A model generated the notes under the pieces. It was not told where the DNA came from and did not search any database. It saw only the letters and a program-made list of their open reading frames with translations. Both the position numbers and the translations under genes were made by a program. Shown here in pieces: positions 10,600-62,645 of a DNA stretch of 64,000 bases. Every line of letters begins with the position of its first letter. Within the stretch, counting starts at the first letter, position 1. Location: the NCBI GenBank assembly GCA_008933995.1, contig WARS01000007.1:3102230-3166229 (forward strand), read 5' to 3'. The DNA comes from Datnioides undecimradiatus. Taxonomy: Eukaryota; Chordata; Actinopteri; Lobotiformes; Datnioididae.

Positions 10600-24886
<14,287 letters not shown>

Positions 24887-29829: not shown

Positions 29830-32800
29830 CTAAAGGCCCGAGGGGAAACAAAGTGACGGTTTAATGTGTTTTATTGCGTATCGCTGATTTGGGCTGGTAA
29901 GGCGTGGACGCAGATTAATTCACGAGAAAACATTTATTGTTGTAACACAGCCTTCTTCATTTAATAAACGCTTGTTAATTATGGATCTGAGCCCCATTGA
30001 TTTTTTTTAATCTTCTTAATCTCTGAAGAGTGAGTCTGTTTGTGAGCCGGCACTGACGACCACAAGTCTTACCTCTCATCCGATAAATGAGAGTCCCGTA
30101 GGCGCTGTCCATCTGGTAGGCAAATATGAAGCCGAGGGGAATGATGGGAGCCAACAGGACTGGTTTCTTTCTTTTAATGGCACTGAAGAAGAATGTAGAA
30201 AGACGTTTAATATGAACCACTGATATGGAATAAAAGATTAAAAACTGCTCATATTTCCAGGCTGCGCGATTCTATGAGAGGTCAATCTGTGATTTGTTGT
30301 AAAATACAGCCCAATACAACCCCAATACAGCTGGTGATGACTCATGTCCCTGTGAATACTGGGAACATATTGATAAATTGTTCAACAGACTCACCCTTAC
30401 TGTTAAAGGGCTGCGCGGTTAAACTTGATGTGTCTAACGCTTTAAAACTACATTCAAGGAGCTTCATCAGTAAAGGCCACTGGACTCACACTGAAGCTGT
30501 GAACACTCAGGTCAGTGAGGATCACGGCACATAAGCTGGTACAAGTTCTGCTCTCAATGTGTGTGAGTGTGTGTGTGTGTGTGAGCGTGAATCTAGTGCT
30601 TAACAAAACAGCTGGGAGCGGAGCCCAATGAGCAGACGCACTCACCCCGCAGCGAGCCCCACAGCAGCCACTGTGAAGAAGGAGCCGAAGTATTTGAGGA
30701 ACTCTCTGGACCAGGCGATCTGCATCGCCATCTGCCTCTCTCTCATCTGGTTCTGCATCAGGATCTGACGCTCCATCTGCGTGTGCAACCGCACACACAC
30801 ACACGCGCGCGCACACACACACACAAACGACACAGAGGATGACATTTATAAACAAACGCGGACACATAACACCAGCACGTACTGTTTTCTGATCAGAAGG
30901 AGTTTCTGAAGACAAACAAACAAATTCCAAATAAATAAAGTAAAGCCCGACTGATATATCACAGCTTCTGTGTACACAACAAGACATTTTCAGTGCCAAA
31001 GATGTGTCTGGTTTAGAAACACCATCTTCATTTTGTAGTTTGTCCACCAGAGAGCACTGACAAGTTTAGTTTTCCACCGTGCAGCGTCGCTCAGCTCACA
31101 TCTGATCTCGTCCCTCTTTGTTTAAACAATAACATGTTTGTTGTGAGCGTGAGGAAATGGACATCAGTCGGGATTATGTTTTCAGATTATGTTTGTAGTT
31201 CTGCGTTCTCCGTGTTGCAATTCGTAACGCAGCACATAGTAAATATGTGGAATACATGGACAAACTCGTGATGTTACGCAACTGAAGTGAGAAGAGATAT
31301 AAAAGGTACAGCTGGACCTGAGAGCAGTGAGACAGGCAGGCGGAGACAGACGGGTCAAAGAGAGAGAGACAGCTTCAGGAGCAAGCTGGACCTCCGTCAG
31401 ATGAATCTTTTGTCTGCTGCTTCCTGTCTGACACTCGCTCACGTCTCCCTGAGCTGAAATACATGCTGCCTGCATAACAATTGCCGCTGAGTGACATTCT
31501 CGTTTAAAAGGCCTTTATTCTCCAAAAGTGAATGTGTCAAAGTTGAGCTTTTATTTCCACTTAACCACAGAGTGACACTAACTCACCGATGATGCAAAGG
31601 TTCAAAAAGTGACCACGGCGCCATTCAAATGCGTGCATGACGTGACGCGGATGACATAAATTACAACGTGTCTGAGAAGCATCGTTTTCATTTCAGACCC
31701 TCCCGTCCATTCGCCAGCAGCTCTGTACGGCGGCGTTAATGGCTCAGCGTTACGTCACGCTGAAGCTTCACTGGATGAAATTAGGAAGGTGGGGCCTGAA
31801 GCACCGACTGACTGAGACTCTACATTATGGAATTTGAAGGTCTGCATTCAAAAGTTTATTTTAAATAGAATGAGCGAGCTGTGCAATAACAGACATGTCG
31901 TCTGATTAACATCTCTACACGTACCGTACTACAATATGTAAAACTGGTGGCCTCTGCGGTACGACAGTGCAGCATCACCTACAGTTAATGTGAAAACCTC
32001 TATGAAACCCCTACCTCAGGACAGAACAGGCCTCCGGCGCGCAGCAGGCCTCTGAATAAACCAGCCAGAGTTCATTTAACATGTTTTATGAGGGAGTCGG
32101 CTTCATATGGACCAACTCCCAGTGTTAAATGTGTTTAACTTGTCAAGCAGAATGAATAAGGGCAAGAGTGATCAGTCACCCTCCCTCAGGGCCTGACAGT
32201 AGGCCTGAGAAATGATCTCCACTCACCAGCTGCTCATTGACAGCCATGCTGCTGGAGTGATAATGGTCCTAAGCTAATCGAATTCATATTCAACAGAAAG
32301 AGAAATTAGGAATGATTTGACATGTTTTAAACTAAAGAAATGTGAGGGCAACTTTTCTGTTTTTGCATTTTGCTGGAATCTGTGGGTGTGGGCCCTCACC
32401 CCAAGATAATATGGTTATCTTGGACGTGCAGGTGGAGGAGAGCGGATGTGGAGGTCCAGGGCTGGTGTGGTTACATGTGGTCCTCTGGCTGTGATGCACT
32501 CGGATGTACTAACAAATCGTTGGGTCGCCGGTGACATCTGTGACATCTTCTGTAATTAAACCGCGCATTTTAAAGTGGCCTTACATTGTGATCATCCCAC
32601 TGCACATCTGTGTAATAATCACAGCTGAATCAGCATCTTGGGGAGAGCTTATTGAAATGGATTTTAAGAAATGTGTGAGCAGAGTTTGCAGGAAAAACAT
32701 GTGTGTGGCTCTCTATAATCACTCATCTCCTGATCAAACTGGTTCGAACAGTGCGCACATTTTTCTCAGATGTTGTATCTACTTCACTTCCTCAGCGTGA

Positions 32801-34248
32801 TCCGGTCCTGTCTCTGAGGTGAAAAGCATAGAAAGTGTAATGTTTGCCTTGTAAATCGCGCTGAGGAACATGTAGCACGTATCTTTATAGATCCAATGTG
32901 ACGAAACTGTAATGAATCGCTTTTTGTGGTAAATACATGATGTAATTAGCGCTCCTGTTGTGACTGAGTGGGGTGATTTGATGACTAAAATGCGGGGCTA
33001 CTAATAAACCTCGGTGGTTGAGGGAAGGGAACGTGTTGAAGTGAGATGCTCAGGAGGGTTCAGGTGTAATCATCAGGCTGAGACGTCATTGGCTGGTTAA
33101 AGTACAGTAAAAAGCACTTACACTAATGTCGCGCAATCAACCCTTTAAATCTAAGCTAATATGGTTATTAAGCACGCTGTTAGGCTGATTGTGGTTCAAT
33201 CAACACGAACATTTAAAAGACTTATTTTAGTCAAACATCACTACAACTGTGTTGATGGGTTCATTATCGAACATTTTTCACTTTAGACGGTTGGCTGGAC
33301 CAAACCAATGGAAGACAATGGGCACATTTTTCATTATTTACACTTTAAAAACTGAATTTCTGACCAATGAATCAGCAAAATTATTGTCAGATTAATCAAT
33401 AACAGAAATAACTTTTAGTTTCAGCCCCACTGTATTCACAAAGTGTATTGACAGAAAAGCTGACGCCCTACGGATTAAAAAAAACTCTTTAAATACATTT
33501 AAGATGCAAATAGAGAAGAAAACCCATCCATTCACCTGGAACATGGGCATGAAATTCTGAGTGCACTGGGAACTTTAAACTGGGAACATGGGCAGAAATT
33601 GTGAGTACTTGAGAAGTTTCTGTGTACATTTTACTCATCTGTCATGAAACTGACTACGGTTACTGTAACCAAGCTGACTGCAGCCGTTACTCTCTCCAGG
33701 AAGGAGGAAGCTACACACTTTAAAGCCTCAGGGGCGAGTGTTTCATACACGAGACAGACTCTGGGTGGAGCGTGTGTCAAAGTAATGAAAATCACAGGAA
33801 CTCCCTCAGTAATCAACAGTTTGCCTTCTGATCACAGGTTTTTTGGAGCTAAATGTGGTGAACAACAGCGCACCAGTGGTTTCTCATCGAAATTAGCCGC
33901 AGTTCAAATAGAAACCACATTCAGCAGGTGAAGCTAATGACTCAAGAATTTAATAGTGTTTTGAATTAGATCCTTTTCCAAGGACAGTGAGGGGAAATTA
34001 CTGATCCATCCACAGAACCCCCCCCCCATGGTCCTCAGGAGCGAGAAATGTGTAATAAAGAGTTTCTGGTGACAGAGTTAAAGAGACGTCACCTCTCATC
34101 AAGCCATCGCAAAACAGGAAGCAGATCAGAGATACTGGATGTTTGATTGTAAAAACTACCTACTGATGGTCAGCGATAATTATTTTAACCCTTGAGTCAT
34201 CCGCTTGTCCATTTCTGTAAAAGAGAGTGTAAATTTTCCAGTGGACAA

Positions 34249-34296
<48 letters not shown>

Positions 34297-37200
34297 GGGA
34301 CTGTGTACGCGGAGGTGGAATCCAAATGTAACCGATATATTATGTTGTATATTTCTTATATTCAGAGTAAAACAGAGTCAACACCTGACTATTGATATGT
34401 GGTTTAAATGCACTGCTCTCATTGGCTCATATAAACTTCACCAGCAGCTGAACACATACTTGCTGTAATCTCTATAAACAGTTGAAGAACCATATTTCTG
34501 ATCCCTATTGGATCATTCGCACATGTATCTGTAAACAGAGAGTAACGGCTTCACCTCCGCCGTCCTCAGTCCCAGCATTGTCGGCGCAGATGCAGCCGAC
34601 ATGGAGCTGAGTCTCACATGCTTTGTGGGAATCCTGGTGGACGTTTGGCTCAGCTCATATGAACAGTCCAATGATATGATACGGAATCCGGAAACTAAAC
34701 GTCCCGAGTTGGACCCCACCTACGCTCCCCTTGGATCAAAGCATCAAAGAGCCGTTCCTCGTGCACTGCTCTATCTGCTGCTTCACTGCACTCACAGTCA
34801 CTAACAGGAATGAACTCATCAAAACCACAAACACATATAGCCCCTAAATCTGCTTCCAACAGCTGTGATCACAAATGCACCCGAACCGCTCAATGTCCTC
34901 TCACAACCCCAGGACGTGCAGGGGAAAGCCTGCTTTGCCGGATAATTTATGCCTCCTGTCGTGACTGGAAATTGGGTATCTTATGAAAGCAGATACAGTC
35001 TCTGAGTACATTAATACCTGCTATGGTGCCAGTACCACACAGGGGTGTGCTCAACTCTATCCTGAAGCTTCCTTGCACATCTGTGTCACAGTTCTTCCGT
35101 CGAACAGCCGAGAAAGGATGGACACCAGGAAAAAGGCATGCCGCGTGGAAACAACGCTCCTCATGAATCACCTGACAACCATGGACGGTTATTCTGCCGA
35201 AGTGAATCGATATGTACTGATTAGATGTTTCACGCCAACAGTCTTGGGTTAGGATCTGGGTTATAGTTAGACCCAATCAGTACGATTTCCACTTGGCAGT
35301 CAGAAAGGAAAACAATAAAATATATCTAATCTGTTCTATTAATAAATCTAATGTTAAACTACAAGTTGGGTAAAAGTTGGCTAGCCGCTGGGCTAATTAG
35401 ATTTAAGCTAACACCGGAGATAAACAGAAACTGGCTGTTTTGTCACTGAACGTCATCAACGACGTCTTAATCAGGACTTAATCAGGAGTTAAGGAGGAAA
35501 GAATGACTGAACAAGATTACAAATACAGACATCTGGTGTCAGGGCTTGACAGTTTTGGTAACTTGTGGTGAGTTGGTGTTTAAGTCTAACACGGAACCAG
35601 AACAATGACTGTAATCGTGCTTTCTACTTGGAAGATATTTCAGGGAAAAACACTTTATTTTTGACTGATACAAACTGTTTCCACAGGACTTTCCACCGTG
35701 ATGACACTGAGTTCTCAAACCCATCAGCTACAAGCGACATCATGTCTCTCTCATGGAAACATCACAAGGGATGACCAATAGATTTCAAAGGCAAGCTTGG
35801 ACAAGCAGTGGAGGATTACACAATGGCTGCGAGACAGTGACTGGAAAAGGCAGTGAAGAAAAAGTGAAAGAAAGAAATGAGCCATGATGAGTCCACTGTG
35901 AAGGTGACAAAGCGAGCAGCGCTGAGGCACTGAGCAGGAAATTCACTGACATTTTCTAAAGGCTGTGGACACACGGAGCAAAACAGTATTTGGAAATGTG
36001 ACACGCCGGAATCATCACGACAGCGAGACCCACGACACACACACACACAGCTACCATGGCTAGCACGTTAGCTGGGTGAAAACAAACTCTGAAATGTTCA
36101 ACTGAGCTGGAAAGGGATTTTGATGGTTCATTGACATGTATCAGGGGCTGCCACCAAACCTCTGTCCTGGTGCTATTTACTTATTACTATAAGGTAGTGT
36201 AATGCAGTGTGTAATGCTTATAATGCACTGCGTCACACACCACTGCTACTGGATCATATTTTACAGAGAAAATGTCCAGCTTCCCCTCTGACGTCCTCCG
36301 GCTGCTTGGCCTCAACTCGCATTTTGACTTACGAAGTTTCTTCACAGACACAGAGCTAAAAGAAAATTGTTGCTACAGTAACCATGAGCAGTTGTTGACT
36401 GGGGTTGCTGTTGGCTCGACAGTGCAGCAAACGGTCCAGACTGGGAGCACCGCTGTGACAGAAGCTCTGGAAAAGCACCTGAAACCCCCAAGGTTTTAAG
36501 GCGCTTGGCGCTGGCGGGGGAATCAGACTCAGCGGCCTCTACAGACATCATGACAGAGGAGGGACTGAACAGGAAGCTGACAGAGGAAGCTGAGAAGAGA
36601 GAAAGAGAGAGCGACCGAGCAAGAAGCCGGACAGGAAATCTCACATTGGCTTTCTGTGAAATATGAGTTCGCAGGAAAGACGCCTGGTTGGCCTCCTTGC
36701 TGTCGTAACTGTGTTGCACTGGCTTGATGTTCGGCTTTGTTAGCGGTTGTTGCCTCACTAGTTTATGATCATACATAATGCCATCATAACAACATCATGA
36801 CAACAGTGTCAGTGGTTCGAGCCTCTGAAATGACACCTTTCATCCATCAGTAATGACTTGTGAGGGCTCCTCAGGGTGCCACTGATGACCCCTTTCAGAC
36901 CAAACTAATACTGGATACTTGCTTTAACCATAACCAGGTATCAACTAAGGTCAAACTATGGCATGTGTACTTATATTCCAATTGACTTTATTAACCGATT
37001 TATTATGAGCTGGATTTCTGACGTGTCCCACAGTTTCCACCATCCATCATTTGATCGAGAGCTCTCAGATGTCCCACCAGCCTAGCATTCAGATGCAGCT
37101 CCGGCTGCACTGATGCACTGTAAGTCTGAGTCTGTTGAGGTGAAAAGTGTGTACAAAGGTGAGGAAACTGGTCAACTCTGCTTATTTTATTGAGTCCACT

Positions 37201-39201
37201 ATTTAGAAGTGTTACCAACACCTAGCAGACTTTATCTTTTTTATTGCCTCCCTGTGTCCAGCTGTGTCCAACTATGTGACTGTATAGTACCTGCAAATTT
37301 ATGGTTTTGAAAAGCGTAAACTTTATTTATCATTAGTGTTTGCATTAGATTTAGAAGGTGATGAAACAAATTAAAAGCATTGCGCTCTTTGTTCACCTTC
37401 TTCACACTCAACCCCACAAGTTCACTGGCAGCACAACCCTACTATTAGCAGCCGGGACCCGATGCTGAATATAAAGTGAATAAAAACATCTCATACGTCA
37501 TTTCACGGCTGTCATTTATCTCCAGGACATGTGTCATACATAACACACCAGCATCAATTTTCAAGTAATGTTAAAGATGGACCGTATGGTCTAAATACAA
37601 TGCCCATTGACTTTGACTTAAGAGGCCACAAGGCAAGAGCGGGGAAAGGATCAATTAGCTATGAATGATGTGACTTGAAAACATTGGCAAGCAATCATCT
37701 TTGACATCTTAATGCAGGGGGAGGCAACAGCTGCTGCTACACAGATATGCTGAAATTGCTAGGGTCAATCTCATTCATTAAACCTGCTGATGTAAAAATA
37801 CAGTTTCATTGTCGAAGATAAAAAAAGCAGCAAATGATTTCCTCTCACGAGTCGAAACGTAACGCTTGACCACAGGCGACCCCTGAAGACCCTGAGTGAG
37901 TTCTGCTCAGCCAAGATCTGAAAGGTTCAATTAATCCAAATTATTAACATAACAATACGAGCTAAAATAGAAGCTGTGGCCATTTCTGCTTTTAATCAAT
38001 CTAAGCAGACAGACAGATGATGATAAAATGAGAAATGTCATACTGCACTGTATTCAAAAACGATTTTCAACAAGTGTGAATAATAAATATGAATGCGCCT
38101 GTAGTACGTTACGTCAATCAAACAACGTAGATCAGCAACAGCTATGCTTAACCATGTACCTGAAATTTACCTGTGAGTCATCATCGAGGCCTAAATTAGG
38201 GCGCTATGGAACTCGATCGCCCAGCCTCAGCCATCACTGACTGATGTTAGTCATCGCCGACCACATTTACAGCGTGCAGAGCGCCAGAAAATTACAGAGC
38301 AGACAACGCAACAAAGCTTTTGGGCATATGTTGGATAATGTCATTGCAGTTATGACAGTCACACATCCCACCTGCTGCTCAGCAGCTTGCGGGCATGAAT
38401 AAATCACAACAGATTGGCCTCAAAAAGGGACAAAATACAATCCCTTTTTTTAAATGAACAAACAAACAATAATAATGGGTGCAATAAAACCCGTGCTCTC
38501 TAAATGGAAATGCTGAGATTGGAATCAAGGTTTGTATCCCTGGCCTTTACACTCCATGTGGGCCTGTGTGTGACTCCATGAGTTCAGCTCCATTTGTGCC
38601 GGCTGGTAATTTGATTAAAAAATATTGTTTTAATAATATGCAGTATGTGAGGACAGTATAAAAAGAAGTATTAGAGTTTGATGCTGGGACACAGTTTAAG
38701 ACAGCATTTCTAAATCAGGTCATACAGCAGGTCCTTAGTGTGTCAGCTGATGCTGTGCTCTCTTAGTGTAGTGAAAATTTCCATATTCCTCAAATAAACA
38801 AAGTGTCACACAGTGAGTTTTGGGTTGTTGGGACATTGGAGGCTTTTGTGGGTGATCCGGCCTTTACCTGTATCACATGCTTTACTTAGCAGTGGGACAT
38901 CTACACTATATCCAAAGCTGACAGATGCTTATGTGCAAAACCATAATCCAAAATGTGGTACACTCCAACCCACAGTGCATCAAGCACAAATCCCCCAGCA
39001 CATGGCTGCAACATTCCATACTCCACCTGACACAGGTACAGGTTTACAGATGCATGGGGAAATACCTGCTGCAGGGCAGATCAGATCTTTTGCACAGCGA
39101 TGTTATCCAGCTTCACTCACCTGCAGCCGTGAATTGTGGAGCATGAACTCCTGCTGCCTTTTAAAGTTTGCATCCATTGATTTGGACAGTAGAAACCCCA
39201 T
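29702..39201 (-). CDS. plgrkt: PLGRKT, plasminogen receptor with C-terminal lysine, complete, 4 coding exons
   Basis: Integral membrane protein that binds plasminogen through an exposed C-terminal lysine and promotes its activation on the cell surface (known for mammalian PLGRKT). Joined exons give 450 nt and 149 aa (human 147). The sequence starts MGFLLSKSMD, has the highly conserved block QMRERQMAMQIAWSREFLKYFG (residues about 37-58), and two hydrophobic segments at about 53-72 and 79-97 separated by a KRKK turn. It ends in LLEK, so the functional terminal lysine is kept. Exons: 39121-39201, 30646-30776, 30073-30182, 29702-29829, with phases that join cleanly. The first intron is 8.3 kb. 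The ATG exon starts at a splice acceptor, so a noncoding exon lies upstream. Confidence 0.94.
30073..30182 (-). CDS. plgrkt: plgrkt coding exon 3 (second membrane segment)
   Basis: Acceptor TTCTTCAG|TGCC; donor ATGAGAG|GTAAGA. It encodes AIKRKKPVLLAPIIPLGFIF and AYGTLIYRM. Confidence 0.93.
30558..30583. repeat. GT-rich microsatellite
   Basis: Interrupted (GT)n tract in the plgrkt intron. Confidence 0.85.
30646..30776 (-). CDS. plgrkt: plgrkt coding exon 2 (conserved core and first membrane segment)
   Basis: Acceptor CACGCAG|ATGGAG; donor GCGGG|GTGAGT. It encodes MERQILMQNQMRERQMAMQI and WSREFLKYFG. A CA/CG repeat (30791-30826) abuts the acceptor. Confidence 0.94.
30791..30826. repeat. (CA)n/(CG)n tract beside the plgrkt exon 2 acceptor
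   Basis: Alternating purine-pyrimidine run of CA, then CG, then CA units. On the plgrkt sense strand it forms the sequence just 5' of the splice acceptor, in place of a normal pyrimidine tract. Confidence 0.9.
33536..33610. repeat. Imperfect tandem duplication, about 43 bp period
   Basis: The words 'ctggaacatgggcatgaaa' (from 33537) and 'ctgggaacatgggcagaaa' (from 33580) start two similar units, each followed by TT(C/G)TGAGT. Two copies only. Confidence 0.6.
34251..34296. repeat. (GATA)n microsatellite
   Basis: About 11 uninterrupted AGAT units within the plgrkt intron. Confidence 0.95.
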
Positions 39202-39214
39202 GGTGCCGCTGTTA
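39121..39214 (-). CDS. plgrkt: plgrkt coding exon 1 (N-terminus) with 13 nt of 5' UTR
   Basis: Acceptor (minus) TATCCACAG|TAACAG at 39215/39214, ATG at 39201-39199, donor CTGCAG|GTGAGT. It encodes 27 residues, MGFLLSKSMDANFKRQ and on to HNSRLQ, matching the human N-terminus. Coding part 39121-39201. Confidence 0.92.
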
Positions 39215-42200
39215 CTGTGGATATAAACATACAGCAATTGAAACTCCTGCTGCAGTCTGAACATATTGAACATACAGGCACAAGTTTCTGTGTGGAGGTA
39301 AAACTGCTTAGCCTGCGTTAACACTATTCACGTTGATGAGAAAGCATTGATGCTAACACCGTCCCACATGTTGCTATAGCTAAATGATAGCAACACTAGC
39401 TGTGTCTCTGCTCTCCCGTTAACCTTGAGTAATTAGACTAATGATATGTGCCGATATGAGCATATCAAAATGCTTCCCGTGCGTCTCCTTCGGTCTTTAA
39501 CCTTGACTGTTAGCATTGCTAACTTTAAAATATAACTTTACATACCGAACACACTTTGAAGACGGTGAGCTAAGTAATGCAATAACACTGGTCACAAAGG
39601 CAGGGCTACTGACGGGTCATGGACATGTCTCTACCAAAACAAACGTGTGTGCGCCACCCAGAAAACCGCCAACTTCCTCCTTGGTTCTGTCAGTTACCCT
39701 GCTGCTTCGTGACTCATCAATGGAATACCCAAAGGATGTACTTCCGATAGGACTTTCAAAATAAGACAAAAACCTGCTATACATATTATGGACAGGAAAC
39801 ACGCTTTACATGTGGAAAAACCTATATAATAAAAGCATTGTTATTGTTTACAACCAAAACTAAAGCATGGCAAAGGCATATGATGGTGATTTTAATCAGA
39901 GGTCAAAGAGTTTACACATGCTTCTTGCCTTCAGGAGATGAACTGCTTGTCCCTGGCATTGTACAGTGAAACGCTCTTGTTTATGGGCCTGGTTGTTTTC
40001 AGTTAGATGAGAAATGGCTCCCTCTGTTGGTGTTTGTGAGTCACTTAAAGGTCTCATTCAGTATCATAATATAAAAGTAATATCACAGCCACAATCTGAA
40101 TTATGCAGAAGTGGGCTGTTTGAAGTTATGACCAAAACATTATAAAAGCAATATAAATTTGAATTGTTAGTTTCATGGCAGCTTTAGAAGTTTAAAGTTC
40201 TGCAGAGGGTTTTAATTTGGACAGAAAGATCTAAATCAAGTTCACTTTAACTTTGTCTAACAATAGTGCATTTGCAGCTTACAGAAAATATACCATGGTA
40301 TTGTTTTTTTCTCCATATTAAACTAAGATTATCTTTGGAACTGAATAATGCTGCAGGACAAACAGCTATCTCTTTGAGAGACCATATAAGTCACTTGACT
40401 TTTAACTTAGGTTACTCAAGTTACATTTGGTTTAGTCTTGATGTGTCAAAGTGGAAAATCTCAATGCCTCAGTCAACCGTGTCAAGCCAAGCTATCATCT
40501 TACATTGATGCATTTCAACAGCAGTGGGAACTCCTGGGTAACTTTCATATTTGTGGCTCGACAATATCTGATTTTCTATTTCCTTAAGTTCGCGGCCAAC
40601 TTAACATGACAGAGTCACTATGCATTTACTTATTTTCGGAAAATTACATACAATCTGTGTCTGACAGCATTTATACAAAAAGATAACCGATCCATTAAAG
40701 GGTAATAAATAGCATCATGCTCCATTATTGCCCCTGCCACAACTTTATCTTACCTCCCTAACTCTGTGTCTCTTGCTTTCAGTATTTTTACATCCTGGTT
40801 ACACCCCTATGGTAACACAGTGTGTGTACTTAATGTTTTACAAAACCTCACATGCTATTAACCAGCATTGGCACTCATGAAAATTATGTTTACATCAGAT
40901 CTGTGCCACAGGTGTTTCCTGTAGTAGCATTTTTCTCATCTGACTTACCTGTGAGGAATATTGCTAGTAAATTCCTTGACAAACTCAGAATTTTCAAGGG
41001 TTTTCCATACAATATGGTGGATATTAACTGTTGCTCAGGGGTTTGTTAAAAATAAACTCGGCAGTGACAACGAGAGCAATTAGATCAGCCATGATCATAT
41101 TTTTATGTTCTACAAAGTGATATTGGGCATGTGCATTCATGTAAATGAACTAATGGAAAATCCTCAAAGGGATCACACAGGCACACTAGATAAAATGGTG
41201 TCACATGCAGTAGGAATTCCACCTGGCAGCTTGGTATGGGAGTTGCATACAAATCTTCTCTGTGATCTGTTTCCAGGTTTTTCTACAAATGATGTGTATT
41301 TACCTGCTGTAGCTTATGCGAACAAGAACCTCTGTGTTCAGTAGTTGTTGTTCACTTTGGTACTTTCTTAGATCCACATCAACATATCAGCACAGACTGA
41401 AAATTCCAGTTTGCCTCCTGTACTGCAGCATGGTGGTAACAGTGTTTTATCATGAGTGAGAATGTGGTGAAGCGTTGGAATGGGGGATCTTTCCAGTGGA
41501 GAAAATGTGCCAGTCAGAACAAATGGCATCTGAAACTAGTGGGGTGCATTGGCACATAGTGGGGTTGTGGTAGGACTTATGTAACAACCATCAGTGAATC
41601 AAAAAAAAAAAGAAAAAGTTTTAACTTAAAAAACTTCTGTGTTTCCCCTCCCTGTGCTGCTCTAATGGCACACAAGTGGGTTATTTCTGCATTCGCTTTG
41701 TTTTTTCCTCTTTATGTGTTATTGCATGTATCTGTAAATTATAAGATTGCCAGCCATGAGAAACTATTATGAAAGTTGTAGAAAATGTGTCTAAATGGAT
41801 CCAAGTGGCAGACACCAATGTCTTCCTGTCAGACTAACAGACTAATTAACCTTGAATAGAGTTCAGTCCAGTCAGCTCTGAAGTACATAAGGAAACTGCC
41901 ATTCCTGGTACTGTACAGTGACACTTGTTGGTAACTCGTATAACAGGGTGTGTGATTTGGTTACGGAATAGATCTAACAACTGGAACTTGCTGTAAAATT
42001 GAGAGGTTTGGCAGAGTTTTCACTTCATGATGATTACATATACTGTTTGCTGCGAGAGTGAATAAGTACAGACAGTGTGTAGACACCATATAAAATCTTT
42101 CTAAGGCCAATGACGTTCTGTAATTCTACTCAGCTCTACTCTGTTGGTAACAATGTGTTGTATGTTTACTTGACTGGCGTATCTATCTTAACCAGATACT

Positions 42201-44534: not shown

Positions 44535-44595
44535 GTCTCAATGGACTGGGCCATTGTTGTAGTTTTGCAAGTCATATTTCAGCCGTCTCTCTCAG
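44535..44595 (+). CDS. cd274: cd274-like exon: signal peptide
   Basis: Acceptor TTCTTCCATAG|GTCTCA, ATG at 44541, hydrophobic MDWAIVVVLQVIF leader, donor CTCAG|GTGTGT, phase 1. Confidence 0.8.
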
Positions 44596-47500
44596 GTGTG
44601 TATTAAAGTGTACATCCGTGTATGAATGTATGAATAAATAACAGCTCAAACGGTGTATCCCCGTGAAACACTTTTATTTCTATGCGACTGGTAAAATCCA
44701 GCAAGCATAATCTGAAGTTGCTTCCCCCAGTCACCGTTTCATGGTGGTGCGCCAAAGTAACGTTAACCTTGACACGAGTCTTATTTCCCCCGCAGTCTTG
44801 TTCACCGTCGATTCGGAGCAAACCGTGTATGAGTCCGACTTTGGAGAAGATGTTGTGCTGGGCTGCAGATTTCACCCTAAACTGCCGAATCCTCACGACC
44901 AGCTCAAGGTGACCTGGCACTGGATCGCCAACCCCATGAGCCGGGAAGTGTACCGGATAGATGACGGGGTGGAGTACTTGGCATCCCAGGATCCGGACTA
45001 CAGGGGCCGCGTGAAGCTTCTTACTGAGGAGCTGGCGGAAGGCTGGGCCAGGTTACAGGTGGGGGGAATTGAATTCTCCAACTGGAGTCCTCGCTTATGC
45101 AAAATGTGATATCTGCCAAGAAAAGACAAAGCAATATGTGCTACTATCTTACCTCTGTGAGGCGTTTAGGTACACACTGTCTCTACCAGCATTCAGCACT
45201 CTCATTGCTGTCACTGTTGAGAGATGAAATAGGGGTTATTCAACAGAAGGAGTGATGGGAATAACCTTGTTTTGTTGCTTCACAGATCTCCAGGCTCAGG
45301 ATCAATGACTCCGGGGTGTACCAGTGTTTAGTGCAAACAGCAAAAGGAGCTGATTACAAAGAGATGACTTTGTCTGTTAGAGGTAAGCGCCACATCTGTG
45401 ACATCATGAAAGTAAAATTAGGCTTCTGGGCGATCGTATCAGGGGCTTCGTTCCAGGAATGGTGGTGCTCGTCGGACAAAGCATGTGGTCATTTACTGGC
45501 AGTTAGAGGGCCATTCAGTTCAAAAGTGAAACTAAGAATTGTGGCTTTTCTATCAACCAGAAGATCTGGTACATGAGAATCCTATCAAACTTCTAATTAC
45601 TAAATATTCTACATTCTTCCCATCTGATTCTCCCTCAGCACCATACAAAGAAGTGACTAAGCACATTCAGAAGGCAGCAGAGGGGGATGAGGTGCTGCTG
45701 ACCTGCCAGTCTGAGGGATACCCGGCGTCCTCAGTCACGTGGCAGGACAGACACCTGCGGAAACTGAATTCCAGCACCACAGCTGTCCCAACGCCGGAGC
45801 AGCTTTTCAAGGTCACCAGCGAGATCCGCGTCCCCTCATCGGACAGAAACAACTACACGTGTAACTTCACAAACGACGGCTACTCTGCAACGTTTCACAT
45901 TCCAGGTGAGTAGTTATTTCCTTGGAGGCTTTCCTTCAGAGACCACGCTCTGAATATTTAGTGGGGGGAGTTTGGGGGGGCTTCCAGATGCATTCCCATG
46001 TGAGGTCAGCCTGGGCAACTGTATTTTACATCATCCACCATCTCGCCCACCTTTTTTCCCAGCTCTCTGCTGCCTAAATGATCCAACTGAAACTGAGTGA
46101 GAACCAGCCACCCATGTCAACCTGCTTGCTTTACACAGAAAACTACATTTGACCCTGTAGGCTTGTATGAAGCCTTGGATATTCAGTTCCAAACAACAGG
46201 AAACAGAGTCATCACGTACATGCCTGCCAGCATGTCATACTGTTTCCTGTCACTGTGTGCTCATACTTTCTTTTTGTAGAGAATTCTACTGCCAAACCAC
46301 ATCAGATGTGAATACTTACAAATAGGAACTGCTGCACGTCACATTAGAGCATTTTGCTGTGCTGCGGAGAAGCTGTGGGAGGTGTTGGGGTTTGATATTC
46401 GAACAGATGTGCGCGTGGGCGTTGAAATCATCTCTGACATTCGTTTGTTGTTTGTGTGTTTGTGCAGGTGTGCATGCAGGCTGCTCATATTTCTGCTTAT
46501 ATATGTGCATGAAGGATTATTTGTTCTTATGGTACAGTACATTCAGACTTGGCTAGCTTGGCTCTCCGGGGTTGCAGCACTGCGTCAGGATACAGATAAA
46601 TCCAAGATATTCTAATGATTGAAAATGATAACAGAGGAAGGAAAAGAAAAAGTAAAAGAAGATTAACTGCGTGCACAGCTTTAAAAACATCCACCAAAGA
46701 AGTCAAAGTAAAAGCTGGTTTTTTTTTTAGATCTTGACCAGAAAGGGGAAGTTTGCAGTGGTTCATTATTGGTATATTTGGTTTTTTCCGTAGTGGTCAA
46801 ACATGGGCCTAACTCACAGAACGCCAACATTTATCCTGTTCCTTTCACTTGTGATGCTGGGATTCGCGGCCCGTATCGACACTAATCCCTCCTCACTCTT
46901 TTCACAGACGAGTTGCCCGCTCCCCAGGGGAAAAACACAGCTCTCATCGCTGCGCTGTGCATCGGGATGATCGTGTTAGTCGTCGTCATTGCCGTGCACC
47001 TGCATCAGCGGCGAAAAGGTAACCAATGGTGTGATTCCTCATGCGTGCAGAAATGTGGTTTTCGGGGCGCGCATCGGGTCTAACAACGCATAATAATTCT
47101 ACATACTCACAGCTAGGGTGAAATCTGAAAGTTACACATGTGCAGTGGTAGTTAAAAATGCAAGGCAGCTGCTTCGGACACCAGGGCTTCAGTCTGCAAG
47201 TGAAACTGGTCGGAGTAGGTGGTGACAGAGCGGGACAGCATTTCCCTTTGGGATGTGCGTTGAAAACAAATGCAGGAAACAGTGGATTCCAGTTGTTTGG
47301 AAGAGCAACGTTATATCCTAAAGCCCTTCCTTCTTTCCTCATTGTAACTACTTACAGTGAAGTCACTTGAGAAAACAGTACAGGTATGACTGGAGCGGAG
47401 AAGAATACAACAAAATCACCATTCATTCGTCTTTTCTGGCAGAGCTACGTCAGCCAGGAGGTTGTTTTCCTTTGTCTTTGTCTCACTGGCAGCAGAATTT

Positions 47501-50500
47501 GTGTCGCTTGTGACCGTGTCATTTCAACTGTAAAGACAGTTGTTTCATGTGATCAGTGCGAAGTATGTTGAGTCAAGTCATTCTGCCGCAGAAAGAGGAA
47601 GCATTTGTGAAACTCAACAGCATGTAAATGTTTGATTTGGCACCGTGATGTCGAAAATTTGGCCTGGTGGGGATTTTATCAGCATGTGACTCGTCCTGCA
47701 TGTTTTTGTGTGAGCATGACTAAGCGTTTTTGACCTGACTTTGTGTCATAGTCACCACATTTGGAAACACCCATCTTGGTCCTGGTTTGCGTGACTGGGG
47801 AATTTGAGGTTAATTGTAAATGCATGGGTGGTTTTTCACTTATAACACATGCCTGTTGATTGAATAAACCCTCAAACAAACACCTCCATCATTTCAATAG
47901 CTTGTACTGTAACGTGTTTCTCCATATATGAATGTGTGATCGTGATAAGAAGTCCTGCTTCAGTTACGGCTCCGGAAAACCTACGGACGCTAATTTTAAA
48001 CTGGTATCAGGCCGCGCACGCCGGGTGTGAATGACCTGCACTCTCATTCTTAGAAAGAAAGCAACGAATCTGGCGCACTGTCCACCTTTGGCGCCTGTGC
48101 TCATACCCCTGTTGATGCAGTGCCTTTCATAAACAGCAGATAAAACAATGAATGTGCTCACGGGAGCGCACAGAATGCATGATAAATGACCGATTAATAG
48201 CAGAATATGCTGCATGCAATAAAAACTAAAGCTGAATAAATAAAAAGATAAGGCATAAAATATATTCAGAGCTTAAATATTAGAAGATAACACCACCTCG
48301 TATGTGCCACCGTTCTGTCAAACATATTTACATATTGAGCTGCATGATTGACTCTGTGACAGTGCCAGACAAACTTCCTCCCTTCCATCCAGCAACGCCT
48401 GAATACATAAACAAACCCCGTGTCAGGGAGTAACTCTTCTGTTTCCGCAGGATCCAGCGTTCCCAGTACCAGAAACCTTTTGGACGCCGGTAGAGGCAGG
48501 TCTATATCTACTACTGACTGTGAGTCTAAACAGAGCTAAAAGCAGCAAACAAACAACACCCGCACGATGTTAATGTGACACACACATAACCAAAGCCACA
48601 ACCATGACTGCAGCAACAGGACAGCAAGAACAAGTTTAGAGGTAGTAAGGGCCTCTCAGCCTTAGTTCCAGGTGTGCCAAGAGTTTTTAAAAGCGCTGCA
48701 TGAGCTAAACATCCAAAAGAAGGTGGTAGCTATGGCAACAAATGATGATCTGCAGCAAATAAGTTAAACTGCTGATGGTGCATTTGTGAAACCGACTCTA
48801 ACTGAAAGACACCCACGGTTTCTCCACACGAAGAGGGCTGAGATCATACATTTAGGGCCATCCTGAAGCTCCAATCACAGTTTCCTCCAGCAGCACCGTG
48901 ATTCATCGCATCTGTGTCATTCATTCCTCAGCTGCTAAGTTGATGCGCTTTTCAGCTATGAATGGGAGCCACATTTGTCTTTGTCGTCACGTCTTAAATG
49001 CAACGTGCAGCGGTTTACTCATGCATGAAACTGGTCATCTGATGAATCTCCTTTAGCTGGAAAAAGGGGTCGCGCTACAGGCGACCGGTGAGGTTTCACC
49101 AAATAAAACCATTTACTGTGCAGTCACACATAAAAACACCTGGACACTTATTCTCCTGAATGCAGAGCAGAGAACACCTTACTGTGAAGCTGCATATCAT
49201 AAAGAGTATCTATTTTGTATTTGATGATTGTTGGTGGTCTACGCGAGTGGACCGACCCTGTAGCAATGACTGAAGTCTTCATTAATCAGCGATTGAGACA
49301 GTGGCTAATCCAGCACTGCTTTGAATGCGACCAGCTTGTGTGCTCCCATGCTAACGGTGCTTTTCCTCTCCGTCAGGCCTGCAAGTAAATACTGACTATG
49401 ACGAAGAGAAAACATTTTTTAATAACGGTAAGAGACTCTTGCGACTTGAAGAGCTCATTGTTTACACGGTTTCCTCAGCTGATGTATAAAATGATTAGGA
49501 ATGATACCTTAAGGCGAAGCTCATGTCTTAAAAAGCATTGTTTTGTCCAAATGCAGTTTAATATCACATGAGAGAGAACATTTCAGATATTTTCCTTAAA
49601 ACTGATTTGAGTTTTTTTAGGAATAGAGCAACAGTTCCCTTAGACACTGACTTTAAGACACGCACAAGGTTAAGGCCCTGAACAAACCCCTCGAAGACAA
49701 ATTCAGTAAGACACCTTAGTCCAGAAATCTCCAGGAGGGGGGGCTTAATGACATCATTTGAAAATGTCCTCTACTCATTGACATTTACACTGTGAACGCT
49801 CTTGGTCCCATGAACTCTCCAGGGAGTGATGGATTCCCCTCTTCTTACCCAAGGTTCTTGGATGAAACCAGCTCAAAGTCAAAAGAGAAAGTCAGTTTGA
49901 CAGAACAGAGCGAAGAGCCGGCGAGGAGGACGGCTTTGTTAGAGCGGCTTATCTCTGAGTGACACGAAGGCTAAATGTCACCGGGGGGGGGGGTATCAGA
50001 GCTCCTGCTGGAAATGCTAATATGCGACGATCCTGTTGACAAATGCTACTGTCCCATCCCCGTCCTCTCTGCACCGCATACCTTTTTTCTCGGTGGATGA
50101 ACATGAGATCTATTATTATTATGTCACATCACATTTTTAAAATGTGAGAATTGTTTGTAATGCGCTGATGTTTGTTCAAATACTGAATAAGCAGTGAACA
50201 GAATAGATACCAAACAGGAAGTTTACTGTGCGAGGCAGCAGAACAAAGAAACAAGAACAAATATCTGAGGGATTTTTTTTCCACGTTACTTGATTCCTTT
50301 TCATTAAGCGAAGCTGATTCAAATGTAATCGGCGCGGTTGTGTCTACGCAGGCGGCGTGGTGGAAAACCTGGGGGCATATGTGAAATCGCGTTATTCTGA
50401 CGTCTGCCTCAGCGAGAGAGCAAGATGCCACTTGGATCCTTTCAGTGTGGAGGAGATGTGTCAAAGGCTGCACAACAAGTGAGTCACAAACTCACATGTA

Positions 50501-51274
50501 TGGGTAGATCATAAGGATGAAGTCTAATTTCCGATTGCACCGAGAGTTTTTACCCAACCACTGAGGAAAATTTGAGTTACCTGTGATTCCACTGAGGACT
50601 GTGAGAAATGTCCGCGCTTTCGATTAAAATGATCGAGAATGTCAAGCTCGTTGTTTTATCTTTTGAGTTTAACCCATTTTGAACTCTCAAGTCGAGACAG
50701 CTTGATATTGGCCATTGAATACATATATTTGTTCAGGCCCGTGTTGTTGACACCATTCCTCTCTGTTATTTGTTTTTTTTCCAGTATCGGCCAGGCGGTG
50801 ACACTTCAAGCTTTACTGCCCGAGGCTGGGGAGACGCTTCTTCTTGAGGGACCCCCAGGAAGCGGGAAGACAACTGTAGCCCACATCCTGGTCGCTTGTT
50901 GGACTGAAGGACCCACACACGTCCATTCAAACGACCTCGACCTCAGCGCGCTCCGGCTTCTCCTGCGCATCGACTGCAGCAACGTGAAGGGCGACTTGTT
51001 TCAGGAAATAACGACACAACTCAATCTCTCGGAAAAGATTTTCACAGAGGATGAGCTGAGGACTATGTTAACCAGGACCAGCGATGTTCTGCTGCTCCTG
51101 GACGAGTACAAAGAGGGGAACCAATGTTTCGATGAGTCCTTAAAGAGGTTTCTCAGTGAAAAAGGAGGATGCAGGGTCCTGGTCACGGCCTGCCCGGGAC
51201 ACTGCCCCACACTGAAGGACACAGTTGGGACAGGAGGACTGCTGGAGCTCCATGCACAAACTGTGAAGTACTGA
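44541..51274 (+). CDS. cd274: PD-1 ligand-like protein (cd274-like) with cytoplasmic NACHT-type P-loop domain, 9 coding exons
   Basis: Joined exons give 1530 nt and 509 aa in one frame. Signal peptide 1-18. IgV domain about 19-138, Cys42-Cys120 with DSGVYQC and the PD-L1-like GADYKEMTL. IgC domain about 139-227, Cys161-Cys213 with LTCQSEGYP. N-glycosylation sequons at 113, 182, 210, 214. Membrane helix about 239-257, then the RRK stop signal. The tail (265-509) is unlike the roughly 30-residue tail of mammalian PD-L1. A 100-residue linker with five tyrosines leads to a P-loop domain with Walker A GPPGSGKTT (369-377), Walker B-like LLLLDE (449-454) and VLVTACP (478-484). Position beside plgrkt matches human CD274. 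The ectodomain should bind PD-1 on T cells; the role of the tail is unknown. The main doubt is whether all nine exons form one transcript, but every junction has good splice sites and matching phase. Confidence 0.8.
44796..45058 (+). CDS. cd274: cd274-like exon: IgV domain, first part
   Basis: Acceptor TTCCCCCGCAG|TCTT; donor TTACAG|GTGGGG. It encodes VVLGCRF (Cys42), VTWHW and RGRVKLL. The IgV domain is split over two exons, ending in phase 0. Confidence 0.88.
45286..45382 (+). CDS. cd274: cd274-like exon: IgV domain, second part
   Basis: Acceptor GCTTCACAG|ATCT; donor GTTAGAG|GTAAGC. It encodes LRINDSGVYQCLVQ and GADYKEMTLSV, close to PD-L1 GADYKRITV. Confidence 0.88.
45639..45905 (+). CDS. 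cd274: cd274-like exon: IgC domain
   Basis: Acceptor TCTCCCTCAG|CACC; donor ATTCCAG|GTGAGT. It encodes APYKEV, LTCQSEGYPASSVTW and NNYTCNF. A single phase 1-1 exon, typical of Ig domains. Confidence 0.9.
45906..46907 (+). other. cd274: Intron of the cd274-like gene, 1.0 kb
   Basis: Between the IgC and membrane exons. No additional coding exon or repeat family was recognised. Confidence 0.6.
46908..47018 (+). CDS. cd274: cd274-like exon: stalk and transmembrane helix
   Basis: Acceptor CTTTTCACAG|ACGA; donor CGAAAAG|GTAACC. It encodes ELPAPQGKN, the hydrophobic IAALCIGMIVLVVVIAV and the basic HLHQRRK. Confidence 0.88.
47019..48450 (+). other. cd274: Intron of the cd274-like gene with a possible internal 3' end
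   Basis: 1.4 kb intron after the membrane exon. Reading on from the exon, an in-frame stop occurs at 47081-47083. AATAAA hexamers are present at 47863-47868 and near 48235. These could support a short form, but no sequence feature proves use. Confidence 0.4.
48451..48519 (+). CDS. cd274: cd274-like exon: juxtamembrane tail, Ser/Thr/Arg-rich
   Basis: Acceptor GTTTCCGCAG|GATC; donor GACT|GTGAGT. Encodes residues 265-287, SSVPSTRNLLDAGRGRSIS. 69 nt, phase 1-1, so it could be skipped without changing frame. Confidence 0.7.
49377..49427 (+). CDS. cd274: cd274-like exon: acidic tail with NTDYDEE
   Basis: Acceptor CTCTCCGTCAG|GCCT; donor AATAACG|GTAAGA. 51 nt, phase 1-1. Residues 288-304 include CLQVNTDYDEEKTFFNN. 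Confidence 0.68.
50352..50478 (+). CDS. cd274: cd274-like exon: pre-NACHT linker
   Basis: Acceptor TCTACGCAG|GCGG; donor ACAACAA|GTGAGT, ending in phase 2. Residues 305-346 include LGAYVKSRYSDVCL and PFSVEEMCQRL. The pattern resembles the stretch directly before the P-loop in animal NACHT proteins (an alkyl-LKxxYxxxC helix). Confidence 0.72.
50785..51274 (+). CDS. cd274: cd274-like terminal exon: NACHT-type P-loop NTPase
   Basis: Acceptor TTTTTTTTCCAG|TATC, phase 2; stop TGA at 51272-51274. Encodes residues 347-509. Walker A is GPPGSGKTT, preceded by the hydrophobic strand TLLLE as in NACHT proteins. The second strand is DVLLLLDEYKEG. A third strand, CRVLVTACPG, aligns with the NACHT 'VTSRP' sensor, but with Cys in place of Arg. 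The domain stops about 25 residues later, so the winged-helix part and any LRR are absent. It is encoded by one exon. Confidence 0.82.
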
Positions 51275-51395: not shown

Positions 51396-51401
51396 AATAA
51401 A
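51396..51401 (+). terminator. cd274: Polyadenylation signal of the cd274-like gene
   Basis: AATAAA 122 nt after the stop codon, followed by T-rich sequence. The close spacing supports this as the normal 3' end of the long form. Confidence 0.65.
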
Positions 51402-60796: not shown

Positions 60797-62645
60797 CTGT
60801 GGGGGAAGATGGACAAAGATATTCTAGTACAGGACGACACGTGACAGGATGTGAATGGTGCCAATGAGTTCATGCTTCAGTTCAGTTTCCCTTCTGGCCT
60901 GTGATTACACCAGTTTCAGGTATTAGTAAACTCCAACTATCAGTTTCCTCCCTGACGCTCTTTGGTGACACATCTATCACACCTAAAACTCATCTCAGCC
61001 TTCCTTTAAACTCCCCTTCCTCTGTCCATTGCAGCAGTTATGAAGCTCTGCGAACTCGCCTGTTTTTCTACAAGTCGTATGGTGTCCTCAGAGTGTCCCT
61101 CCTTCGCCTTTTTGACCTGAGTGACGGCGTTAGTCCGCACTCTCCTCAGCGACTCTTTGGCCTTGTTGCCGAACTGTTTGGCCAGCTTTGCCAGGTTCTC
61201 CCGGTGTTCCCGGGTTACTCTGCGGAGGACGGAGGAGATGAGGGAAGAGAGAAACGAGTGAGACAGAAGCAAGGACAACAACAGCGGATTGTATCGAGCA
61301 AGGGTCGACGCGTGTCTGTGGGGTTTGTTCAAGGAAGTGTTTATTTAAAGGTGTTTGAGTTCCTGTGTTAGAAAGGCTCCTTCCTTCTCGTGAGAGCTGT
61401 CAAACTGCACGCAGACTTCGGCTGGTCCTGTAACACACATAACTGTGCAGAGACAGAATCCTATAAAAAAACCCCAACGTGCTCAGTTGTGCAAATGAGA
61501 CAGTTAAGTGCTTGGAGCATCAGGTCCAATCATGTCAGCTCTGGCTGGTAAACATCTAACAGTAATCACTTCCCGAGGTCTCAGGCCAGAGCCGAAACAT
61601 CCGTCAGCCCGACAACTTTGTATTCACTTTGCATTTGTTAATCACTGAGAAAATCCTACTTCCCATGTCACTCTCCCTCTTTGTCCTTAATTGGCTTTTT
61701 TTTTGTTGTTTTTGCCTCGGGGACTATTTGCAAACAATCCAAGTGCAGCGTCTATTTACCGCAAACAATACGGCCTAATTACTGATTCCAGGGCCAATCA
61801 AGGAGCGCCTTCTCTTTGGAAATGCAAATGGGGGCTCGGAGCGTGCCGAGACTGATTGCAGGGGGAAAGCTGTCTGACTCTTGTCTCCCTCCTCTGCCAG
61901 ACTAACACCTGCTGCTCCGCCGCACGCACGCGCACGCACATAAGCACGGGCCGGCGTTTGCTCATGTATGCTTACATGCACATGTGTGTATGTGTAAAAA
62001 AAAAAAAAACATAGTGTATATACACGGAGCGCTTTAGTGAGTGAGTGACGGATAGTTTTGTGCGAGCTTGTTTGACTTGGCACAGAGAAAGAAAGAGTGA
62101 GAGAGAGCGAGTGAGAGAGGTCTGGCCAGAATAGAGAGAGAGAGAGAGAGAGAGTGACCCGACCCTCACATCAACACACCGGGGGTCTCTATACATCTAC
62201 GGACCAGAGTCAATAAATCTGTCAGTTATAGCTCAGGCGGCGGGTTTGTTAAAAAAGGGGAATTTAAAACCATGGACGAGGTTAAGCTTTGATTATAACA
62301 TGATGTACTGATTATCTCACTGACTTATTGGGGGATTATTTAGTCTGTAAACTCTACATTAATACTGTGAAATGTCTGTCGCAGAGAGCAGAGAATAAAC
62401 TTATTGATTTGGTCTGAATCACCTTAATCTAACCATAAACCCTTAAACCTTATCTAACATTGATTATCTATTGATTGATTGATTGGCTGATCAATTCATA
62501 GAACAGTTTGGGCCTGTAGAAGTTACAGTACAATGTATGCTAAACAGTAGGAGGTGAAAACGACAGAGGAACGACAGAAGAAAAGGAAAAGTGGCCGAAA
62601 AAGATCGAAACGAAAAGCAGGAAAGTGTTTCTGCCCTTGGGGCTG

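Follow-up and report, generated by a model that had tools for sequence, protein, structure and literature searches.

The window that we analysed, a stretch of 64,000 nucleotides from Datnioides undecimradiatus, holds exons of JAK2 and PLGRKT followed by a nine-exon gene on the forward strand (Table 1), and so presents the gene order JAK2-PLGRKT-CD274 that is likewise found in human. The PLGRKT reading frame at 39103-39327 matches PF10166 with 20.4 bits, under the 25-bit cut-off.

Table 1. Features of the locus, in window positions. The homologue model is the predicted model of homologue P0001.
Feature	Position	Strand	Evidence or remark
JAK2 exons (SH2 and kinase pieces; gene extends further)	17473..22515	+	Syntenic neighbour
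PLGRKT exons (PF10166, DUF2368, in three ORFs)	29975..39327	-	Syntenic neighbour
Exon 1, start codon and signal peptide	44541..44595	+	Exon rebuild; N-terminal helix 3-17 in homologue model
Exon 2, IgV first part	44796..45058	+	Exon rebuild, Pfam, PD-L1 alignment
Exon 3, IgV second part, GADYK motif aligning with solved PD-L1	45286..45382	+	Exon rebuild, alignment
Exon 4, IgC domain	45639..45905	+	Exon rebuild, Pfam, PD-L1 alignment
Exon 5, stalk, membrane helix and start of cytoplasmic tail (RRKG)	46908..47018	+	Helix 238-263 in homologue model
Exon 6, linker, little conserved	48451..48519	+	Exon rebuild; linker predicted disordered in homologue model
Exon 7, linker	49377..49427	+	Exon rebuild; homologue model
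Exon 8, helical lead-in to NTPase, conserved Tyr319	50352..50478	+	Exon rebuild; homologue model
Exon 9, entire NACHT nucleotide-binding core and stop codon	50785..51274	+	Exon rebuild, Pfam, fold
AATAAA, likely polyadenylation signal, 122 bases past stop	51396..51401	+	

A preliminary description of this DNA had proposed nine exons with consensus splice sites and fitting phases, and these could be rebuilt from the window as an open frame. All eight introns are GT-AG, the phases are compatible, and the joined sequence of 1530 nt has a single terminal stop and encodes 509 amino acids. With exons 1-4 fixed, an AG/GT scan for exons 5-9 returned seven alternative open joinings (1494-1527 nt) that all shift exon 5, 6 or 7; the linker residues are therefore less certain than the remaining protein. 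AATAAA also occurs within introns (47863, 48218, 48235 and 48239), and these sites would allow a short form.

The signal peptide, IgV domain, IgC domain and single membrane helix that make up the PD-L1 layout are all present, as judged from the exon rebuild, Pfam and the P0001 model. The ectodomain aligns with a solved PD-L1 chain over 237 residues in one stretch of 105 bits, and by sequence PD-L1 is its nearest solved B7 protein. CD276 comes top by total score among the solved B7 proteins (115.7), yet this total is a double match of about 57 bits each against the single 105-bit PD-L1 stretch, and CD276 was rejected as the true identity. The two-Ig ectodomain, the GADYK motif and the gene order are thus held in common with PD-L1/CD274. 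Together, the PD-L1 alignment and the adjoining JAK2 and PLGRKT genes bear out the earlier proposal that the gene is the true positional counterpart of CD274 beside plgrkt. The difference lies in the cytoplasmic part: mammalian PD-L1 has a short tail, whereas that of the fish protein contains a NACHT nucleotide-binding core.

This core is recognised by Pfam NACHT (PF05729) at residues 364-494 of the 509-residue protein with 29.4 bits, above the curated cut-off of 26.7 bits; the score is 31.7 bits for the tail alone and 31.9 bits when the genomic exon is scanned. The NCBIfam matches were all weak and stayed far below the cut-offs. Walker A (GPPGSGKTT) occupies residues 369-377 and Walker B reads LLLLDEYKE, in which Glu replaces the usual Gly. 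At the sensor-1 position the protein has Cys in place of the Arg that is typical of many NLRs, and which we do not treat as defining NACHT. The predicted structure of exon 9 has the nucleotide-binding core fold of NACHT, so that profile and fold agree with the initial assignment of the last exon as a P-loop NTPase. Helical domain 1 and the winged helix are absent after the core: the frame ends at 51274 directly past it, and the predicted model finishes with a helix (141-147) and a strand (152-154). Neither leucine-rich repeats nor an N-terminal effector domain were found in the exon model or in the 25 of 33 matched Pfam families listed. The label of NLR-type NTPase therefore stands for the NACHT core and for nothing beyond it, the winged helix being missing, and with a nucleotide-binding core only the protein is not classed as an NLR. 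The conserved Tyr319 (SRYSDV) in front of the core was considered as an ITIM-like motif and rejected, as none of 94 gap-free rows matches the ITIM pattern; Tyr occupies this position in 111 rows and each of the next letters occurs once.

The nearest solved relatives of the tail are the NACHT domains of NLRC4, NAIP, NLRP3 and NOD2. NLRC4 is top by sequence for the window tail and top by fold (24% identity), and when the tarpon tail is the query no other solved relative reaches E <= 0.001. With a profile of 14 tails, Midasin outscores NLRC4 through summed weak P-loop matches; as these are several short matches, none above 10 bits, we rejected Midasin as the true top relative. In contrast to NLRC4, the fish tail ends after the nucleotide-binding core and is carried on a membrane protein that has no CARD, winged helix or leucine-rich repeats. 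Such kinship raises the alternative that the tail is a decoy or sink, pairing with the NACHT domains of cytosolic NLRs and damping inflammasome assembly at the membrane, which would couple restraint of T cells with innate restraint within one cell. A core with no winged helix or effector domain could conceivably pair and not signal, but identity to NLRC4 is just 24%, and we regard both the decoy and the coupling as improbable.

The architecture is shared widely among fishes. A 509-residue protein of Symphorus nematophorus matches the query over 100% of its length with 72% identity and identical domain labels, which puts the architecture beyond chance. PF05729 was found in 104 of the 120 listed homologues, 103 of them with an Ig label alongside, and ten homologue rows have the entire frame on contigs of 1435-2223 bases, which are mRNA-like because the unspliced gene, at 6.7 kb, would not fit on them. 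That PD-L1 and a separate NTPase gene were wrongly joined is scarcely credible in the face of these single-protein homologues and short whole-frame contigs, nothing turned up that speaks for it, and we reject such an artefact for the family. Ig ectodomain and NACHT thus form one gene across many fishes, mRNA-like contigs included, as first described. The last exon is present in other fish cd274 genes, which for the family contradicts both its absence from orthologous loci and transcripts that always end early.

Of 51 aligned homologues, 48 gave a NACHT match with E <= 0.001, and the three misses must be the tail-less models, since three such models were included in the set. Among nine homologues rescanned with the NACHT profile, picked mostly for missing the label, tarpon scored 47.6 bits and the other eight 18.0-24.4 bits, below the cut-off of 26.7. 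The B7-H1/DC proteins of Takifugu (P0103, 485 aa) and Paralichthys (P0086, 499 aa) have the same domain layout under names that give no hint of a NACHT domain; in the flounder protein the P-loop is degenerate and the NACHT score is below the cut-off. That the tail was captured recently from a local NLR exon is not favoured, because tarpon and bonefish already possess the tail and the tail profile is weak on genomic NACHT loci: across the first eight of 57 NACHT matches in the Datnioides genome, the best domain score was 15.2 bits (L001) and the other seven reached 3.0-9.7.

Residues that contact nucleotide in P-loop proteins are strongly kept. The Walker A pattern [GA]xxxxGK[ST] is retained in 165 of 169 rows, the Walker B Asp in 167 of 168, and the second acid is Glu in 164 and Asp in 3 of 169 rows, both Albula proteins lacking it. 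The mean conservation of six nucleotide-binding positions is 0.991 versus 0.778 for random exon-9 positions, and none of 20,000 draws reached 0.991. Exon 9 identity exceeds ectodomain identity in 70.6% of 5565 pairs (means 0.658 and 0.624); this comparison used the 106 rows, out of 120, in which neither region is incomplete. An unlikely, though substantial, alternative is that the NACHT fold serves as a protein-binding scaffold, with no or incidental nucleotide binding and a P-loop conserved for folding. It would fit the natural Walker A breaks (4 of 169 rows, flounder P0086 among them), the G-to-E change in the Walker B of the window's protein (DG is the usual pair, in 160 of 168 rows), the missing winged helix, and a sensor-1 Arg that is mostly lost (Cys in 115 rows and Arg in 18, including tarpon, by a rough pattern that caught 168 of 171 rows). 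Against it, few positions of exon 9 are as well conserved as the Gly, Lys and Thr of the P-loop and the acids of Walker B, and a pure scaffold would hardly require the Lys.

An extended PD-L1 tail in ray-finned fishes is already in print: the main text of Kondo et al. 2025 (PMC12151841) credits it to Hu et al. 2023 and describes a highly conserved C-terminus that a single exon encodes and that many ray-finned fishes share, bichir among them. Of 13 ray-finned fishes in the same text, only 9 are shown with the extension, and salmonids are not among them; as 8 of our 179 collected proteins also have no tail, PD-L1 in itself does not depend on it. The conserved tail exon is numbered 8 there and is the ninth here; matched by description, the two very probably correspond. 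That main text never mentions NACHT, NTPase, P-loop or ATP; it portrays the stretch as carrying charged residues as well as hydrophobic patches, and as a possible membrane binder. A tail lying on the membrane and governing PD-L1 turnover, as those authors suggest from the patches, seems to us very improbable, since the homologue is predicted to form an alpha/beta domain (strands 364-368, 405-410, 448-453 and 477-482) in which the hydrophobic stretches would probably be buried, if the patches correspond to these strands. Among the open-access PMC matches listed, which did not cover Hu et al. 2023, none was seen to name NACHT in fish PD-L1 and none deals with the tail of flounder, tilapia or seabass PD-L1. 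Within those matches the extended tail is already known and its reading as NACHT is apparently new.

Architecture, orthology, predicted fold, nucleotide-residue conservation and mRNA-like contigs with all domains are computational observations; beyond them, we infer nucleotide binding, oligomerisation and an effect on PD-1 engagement. The tail would be a single-module NACHT P-loop NTPase, nearest NLRC4, tethered via a flexible linker some 40 residues long, whose P-loop on the cytosolic face may bind Mg-ATP or ADP. Nucleotide state could then alter self-association of the tail or its association with NLR proteins, which in turn might determine how PD-L1 clusters, how it turns over or how it signals into the bearing cell. 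The winged helix locks ADP in NLRs; as it and helical domain 1 are missing, a full ADP-locked switch is not expected and a simpler ligand-dependent adaptor is. We lean towards the combined reading of a CD274 orthologue with an ancient, selectively kept NACHT tail whose nucleotide-dependent association tunes PD-L1. More tentatively, and at somewhat less than even chance, PD-L1 of many ray-finned fishes acts as a PD-1 ligand outside while the nucleotide state of an NLRC4-like ATP-binding module inside gates clustering or signals back.

Whether mammalian PD-L1 signals into the cell bearing it is still debated, and in fishes the tail is a recognisable, predicted-folded domain. The membrane-near part of the mammalian tail is poorly conserved outside mammals, according to the main text of PMC12151841. 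With an ATP-binding-type fold and conserved P-loop residues, the fish tail makes reverse signalling testable by single point mutants, and offers an alternative reading for what was lately taken as a hydrophobic, maybe membrane-touching stretch. The domain is missing in some fishes, which matters wherever fish serve as models of checkpoint biology. Nucleotide binding inside the cell may control the restraining signal to T cells. If this two-faced reading is true, fish PD-L1 would directly and physically connect the checkpoint with machinery of the inflammasome type, a connection maintained since before the deepest teleost splits and missing in mammals.

The gene under study is PD-L1. Solved PD-L1 aligns with its ectodomain in one stretch of 237 residues that includes GADYK (105 bits), and a Foldseek search with the structure model of the closest homologue ranked PD-L1 first (5xj4), with a TM score of 0.87 by target length for 5grj. 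CD276 was rejected as its identity, outranking PD-L1 only through the sum of two matches of ~57 bits each. JAK2 and PLGRKT adjoin the gene, as in the human order, JAK2 - PLGRKT - CD274; with the ectodomain match, this upholds the preliminary description's claim of a CD274 counterpart at its true position.

Rebuilding the exons from the window, we obtained a 1530-nt frame (509 aa) from nine exons, with GT-AG introns and matching phases, as that description had proposed. A splice-site scan found seven other open joinings for exons 5-7, which makes the linker letters the least certain part of the model. Pfam places a V-set domain at residues 35-132, an I-set domain at 149-223 and a NACHT domain at 364-494, the last with 29.4 bits (Pfam cut-off 26.7); in a profile search of the 581-Mb genome, bare exon 9 reached 31.9 bits. 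A tail-less form is listed for Melanotaenia as isoform X2 (P0119).

Features of the cd274 locus (window coordinates)
Feature	Position	Strand	Detail
JAK2	upstream of cd274		one SH2 fragment and two kinase fragments, one fragment matching JAK2 over 72 residues, 130 bits
PLGRKT	upstream of cd274	minus	DUF2368, the PLGRKT family, in three ORFs, the third below the Pfam cut-off
cd274	44541-51274	plus	nine exons
AATAAA, four copies	47863-48239		intron 5; a short-tail isoform could end here
AATAAA	122 bases after the stop codon		
Ribosome recycling factor exon, probably mrrf	61006-61344	minus	PF01765; downstream of cd274

The Ig-NACHT fusion is genuine and occurs widely. The 509-aa protein, used as query, returned 144 proteins, and among the best 120 of these, 104 carry PF05729, 103 of them with an Ig label alongside; the exception, P0115, has the NACHT label without one. 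The tail is present in 171 of the 179 proteins collected from three homologue searches, and a simple Ig cysteine motif occurs in 111 of the 112 tail-bearing proteins of at least 400 aa. Most of the shorter ones stem from a query with the tail alone and resemble frames of a single exon on genomic contigs. Ten homologues of 431-508 aa (P0012, P0017, P0026, P0027, P0029, P0060, P0061, P0076, P0090 and P0094) are encoded on contigs of which the longest has 1435-2223 bases; the 508 codons of P0017 leave ~75 bases of contig, and ~130 are left for P0029. At 6.7 kb, the unspliced gene of this fish would not fit on them, which leaves spliced transcripts or, with less likelihood across so many examples, retrocopies. 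Together with the paired labels, they confirm for many fishes a PD-L1 ectodomain and an NTPase joined in one gene. Takifugu and Paralichthys entries called B7-H1/DC have the same layout, as do, in a further homologue search, one protein from Megalops (tarpon) and two from Albula (bonefish). These elopomorphs are among the deepest teleost branches, fish placements here being made from species names. Proteins of this layout are variously named PD-L1, PD-L2, CD276, butyrophilin, IGSF11 and even coxsackievirus receptor; this mixture of names may be the reason that the tail went overlooked.

There is good support for reading the tail as a constrained NACHT core, in line with the NLR-type NTPase first read from the last exon. 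Of 51 homologues in an alignment, 48 have NACHT at E <= 0.001, and the three misses must be the three tail-less models in that alignment. The score rises to 47.6 bits in tarpon and falls below the cut-off, to 18 bits, in the two Albula proteins; six more homologues, rescanned because they lacked a label, also fall below it. Of 169 rows, made up of the window and 168 database proteins, 165 keep Walker A and 167 the second acid; the Walker B Asp is kept in 167 of 168. Mean conservation is 0.991 at six nucleotide-binding positions versus 0.778 in random sets. Over the 106 of 120 rows in which neither half is incomplete, mean pairwise identity is 65.8% in exon 9 and 62.4% in the ectodomain. Exon 9 is the better conserved half in 70.6% of 5565 pairs, and divergence in one half tracks divergence in the other (Spearman 0.65); since pairs share ancestry, these figures are a description of constraint, not a set of independent tests.

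Other observations weigh against this reading. The window has DEYKE for DGYRE in Walker B, with a Glu, common to it and three other rows, where 160 of 168 have Gly. Both Albula proteins lack the second acid. Among 168 rows caught by a rough pattern, the sensor-1 Arg is absent in 150, mostly replaced by Cys, and kept in tarpon. Walker A is broken in four of 169 rows, including flounder B7-H1/DC (P0086, Paralichthys olivaceus), where it is degenerate and the remainder of the tail is kept. Eight of the 179 proteins have no tail. Two of these, from Antennarius striatus (P0110) and Brachionichthys hirsutus (P0113), both anglerfish relatives, have PD-L1 models that stop in the linker without NACHT, which could reflect lineage loss or truncated models. 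Tail-less proteins, and the lack of the extension in some ray-finned fishes, indicate that some lineages can do without the domain; hydrolysis may be weak even in tails that retain binding.

Kondo et al. 2025 (PMC12151841) describe a long conserved extension, encoded by one exon, in 9 of the 13 ray-finned fishes that they take as representative, as early as bichir; they could not find it in salmonids, and they credit its first mention to Hu et al. 2023. NACHT, NTPase, P-loop and ATP have zero occurrences in their main text. Among the matches listed in open-access literature we found none that calls the tail NACHT, nor, in that literature, discussion of the Pfam label that automatic databases assign (P0115 is even named NACHT domain-containing). 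In the brain of grouper, according to a review, PD-L1 was triggered in the course of a persistent infection with nervous necrosis virus (PMC8875540); P0028, the homologue from Epinephelus lanceolatus, has the tail.

By computational prediction, the product is a type I membrane protein whose PD-L1 ectodomain lies outside and whose NACHT core follows a flexible linker of ~40 residues. The preliminary description had suggested that the tail could sense nucleotide state or oligomerise, altering PD-1 engagement or signaling inward. Its interpretation as a whole is partly supported, in that the CD274 identity, the fusion and the domain identity stand; nucleotide binding is predicted from the conserved P-loop and acids. 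Without a winged helix, ADP locking as in NLRs would not be expected, and we infer that the module more likely acts as a ligand-dependent adaptor or clustering device. The tail might instead be a scaffold or an NLR decoy, or contact the membrane, as Kondo et al. proposed for the extension. As an adaptor or clustering device, it would raise avidity for PD-1 through clustering, or send signals into the bearing cell. Apparently unrecognised in the literature searched, this is a checkpoint ligand bearing a nucleotide-binding core of the NLR type that has been conserved among fishes only very distantly related, and the flounder protein offers a natural test of how important nucleotide binding is.
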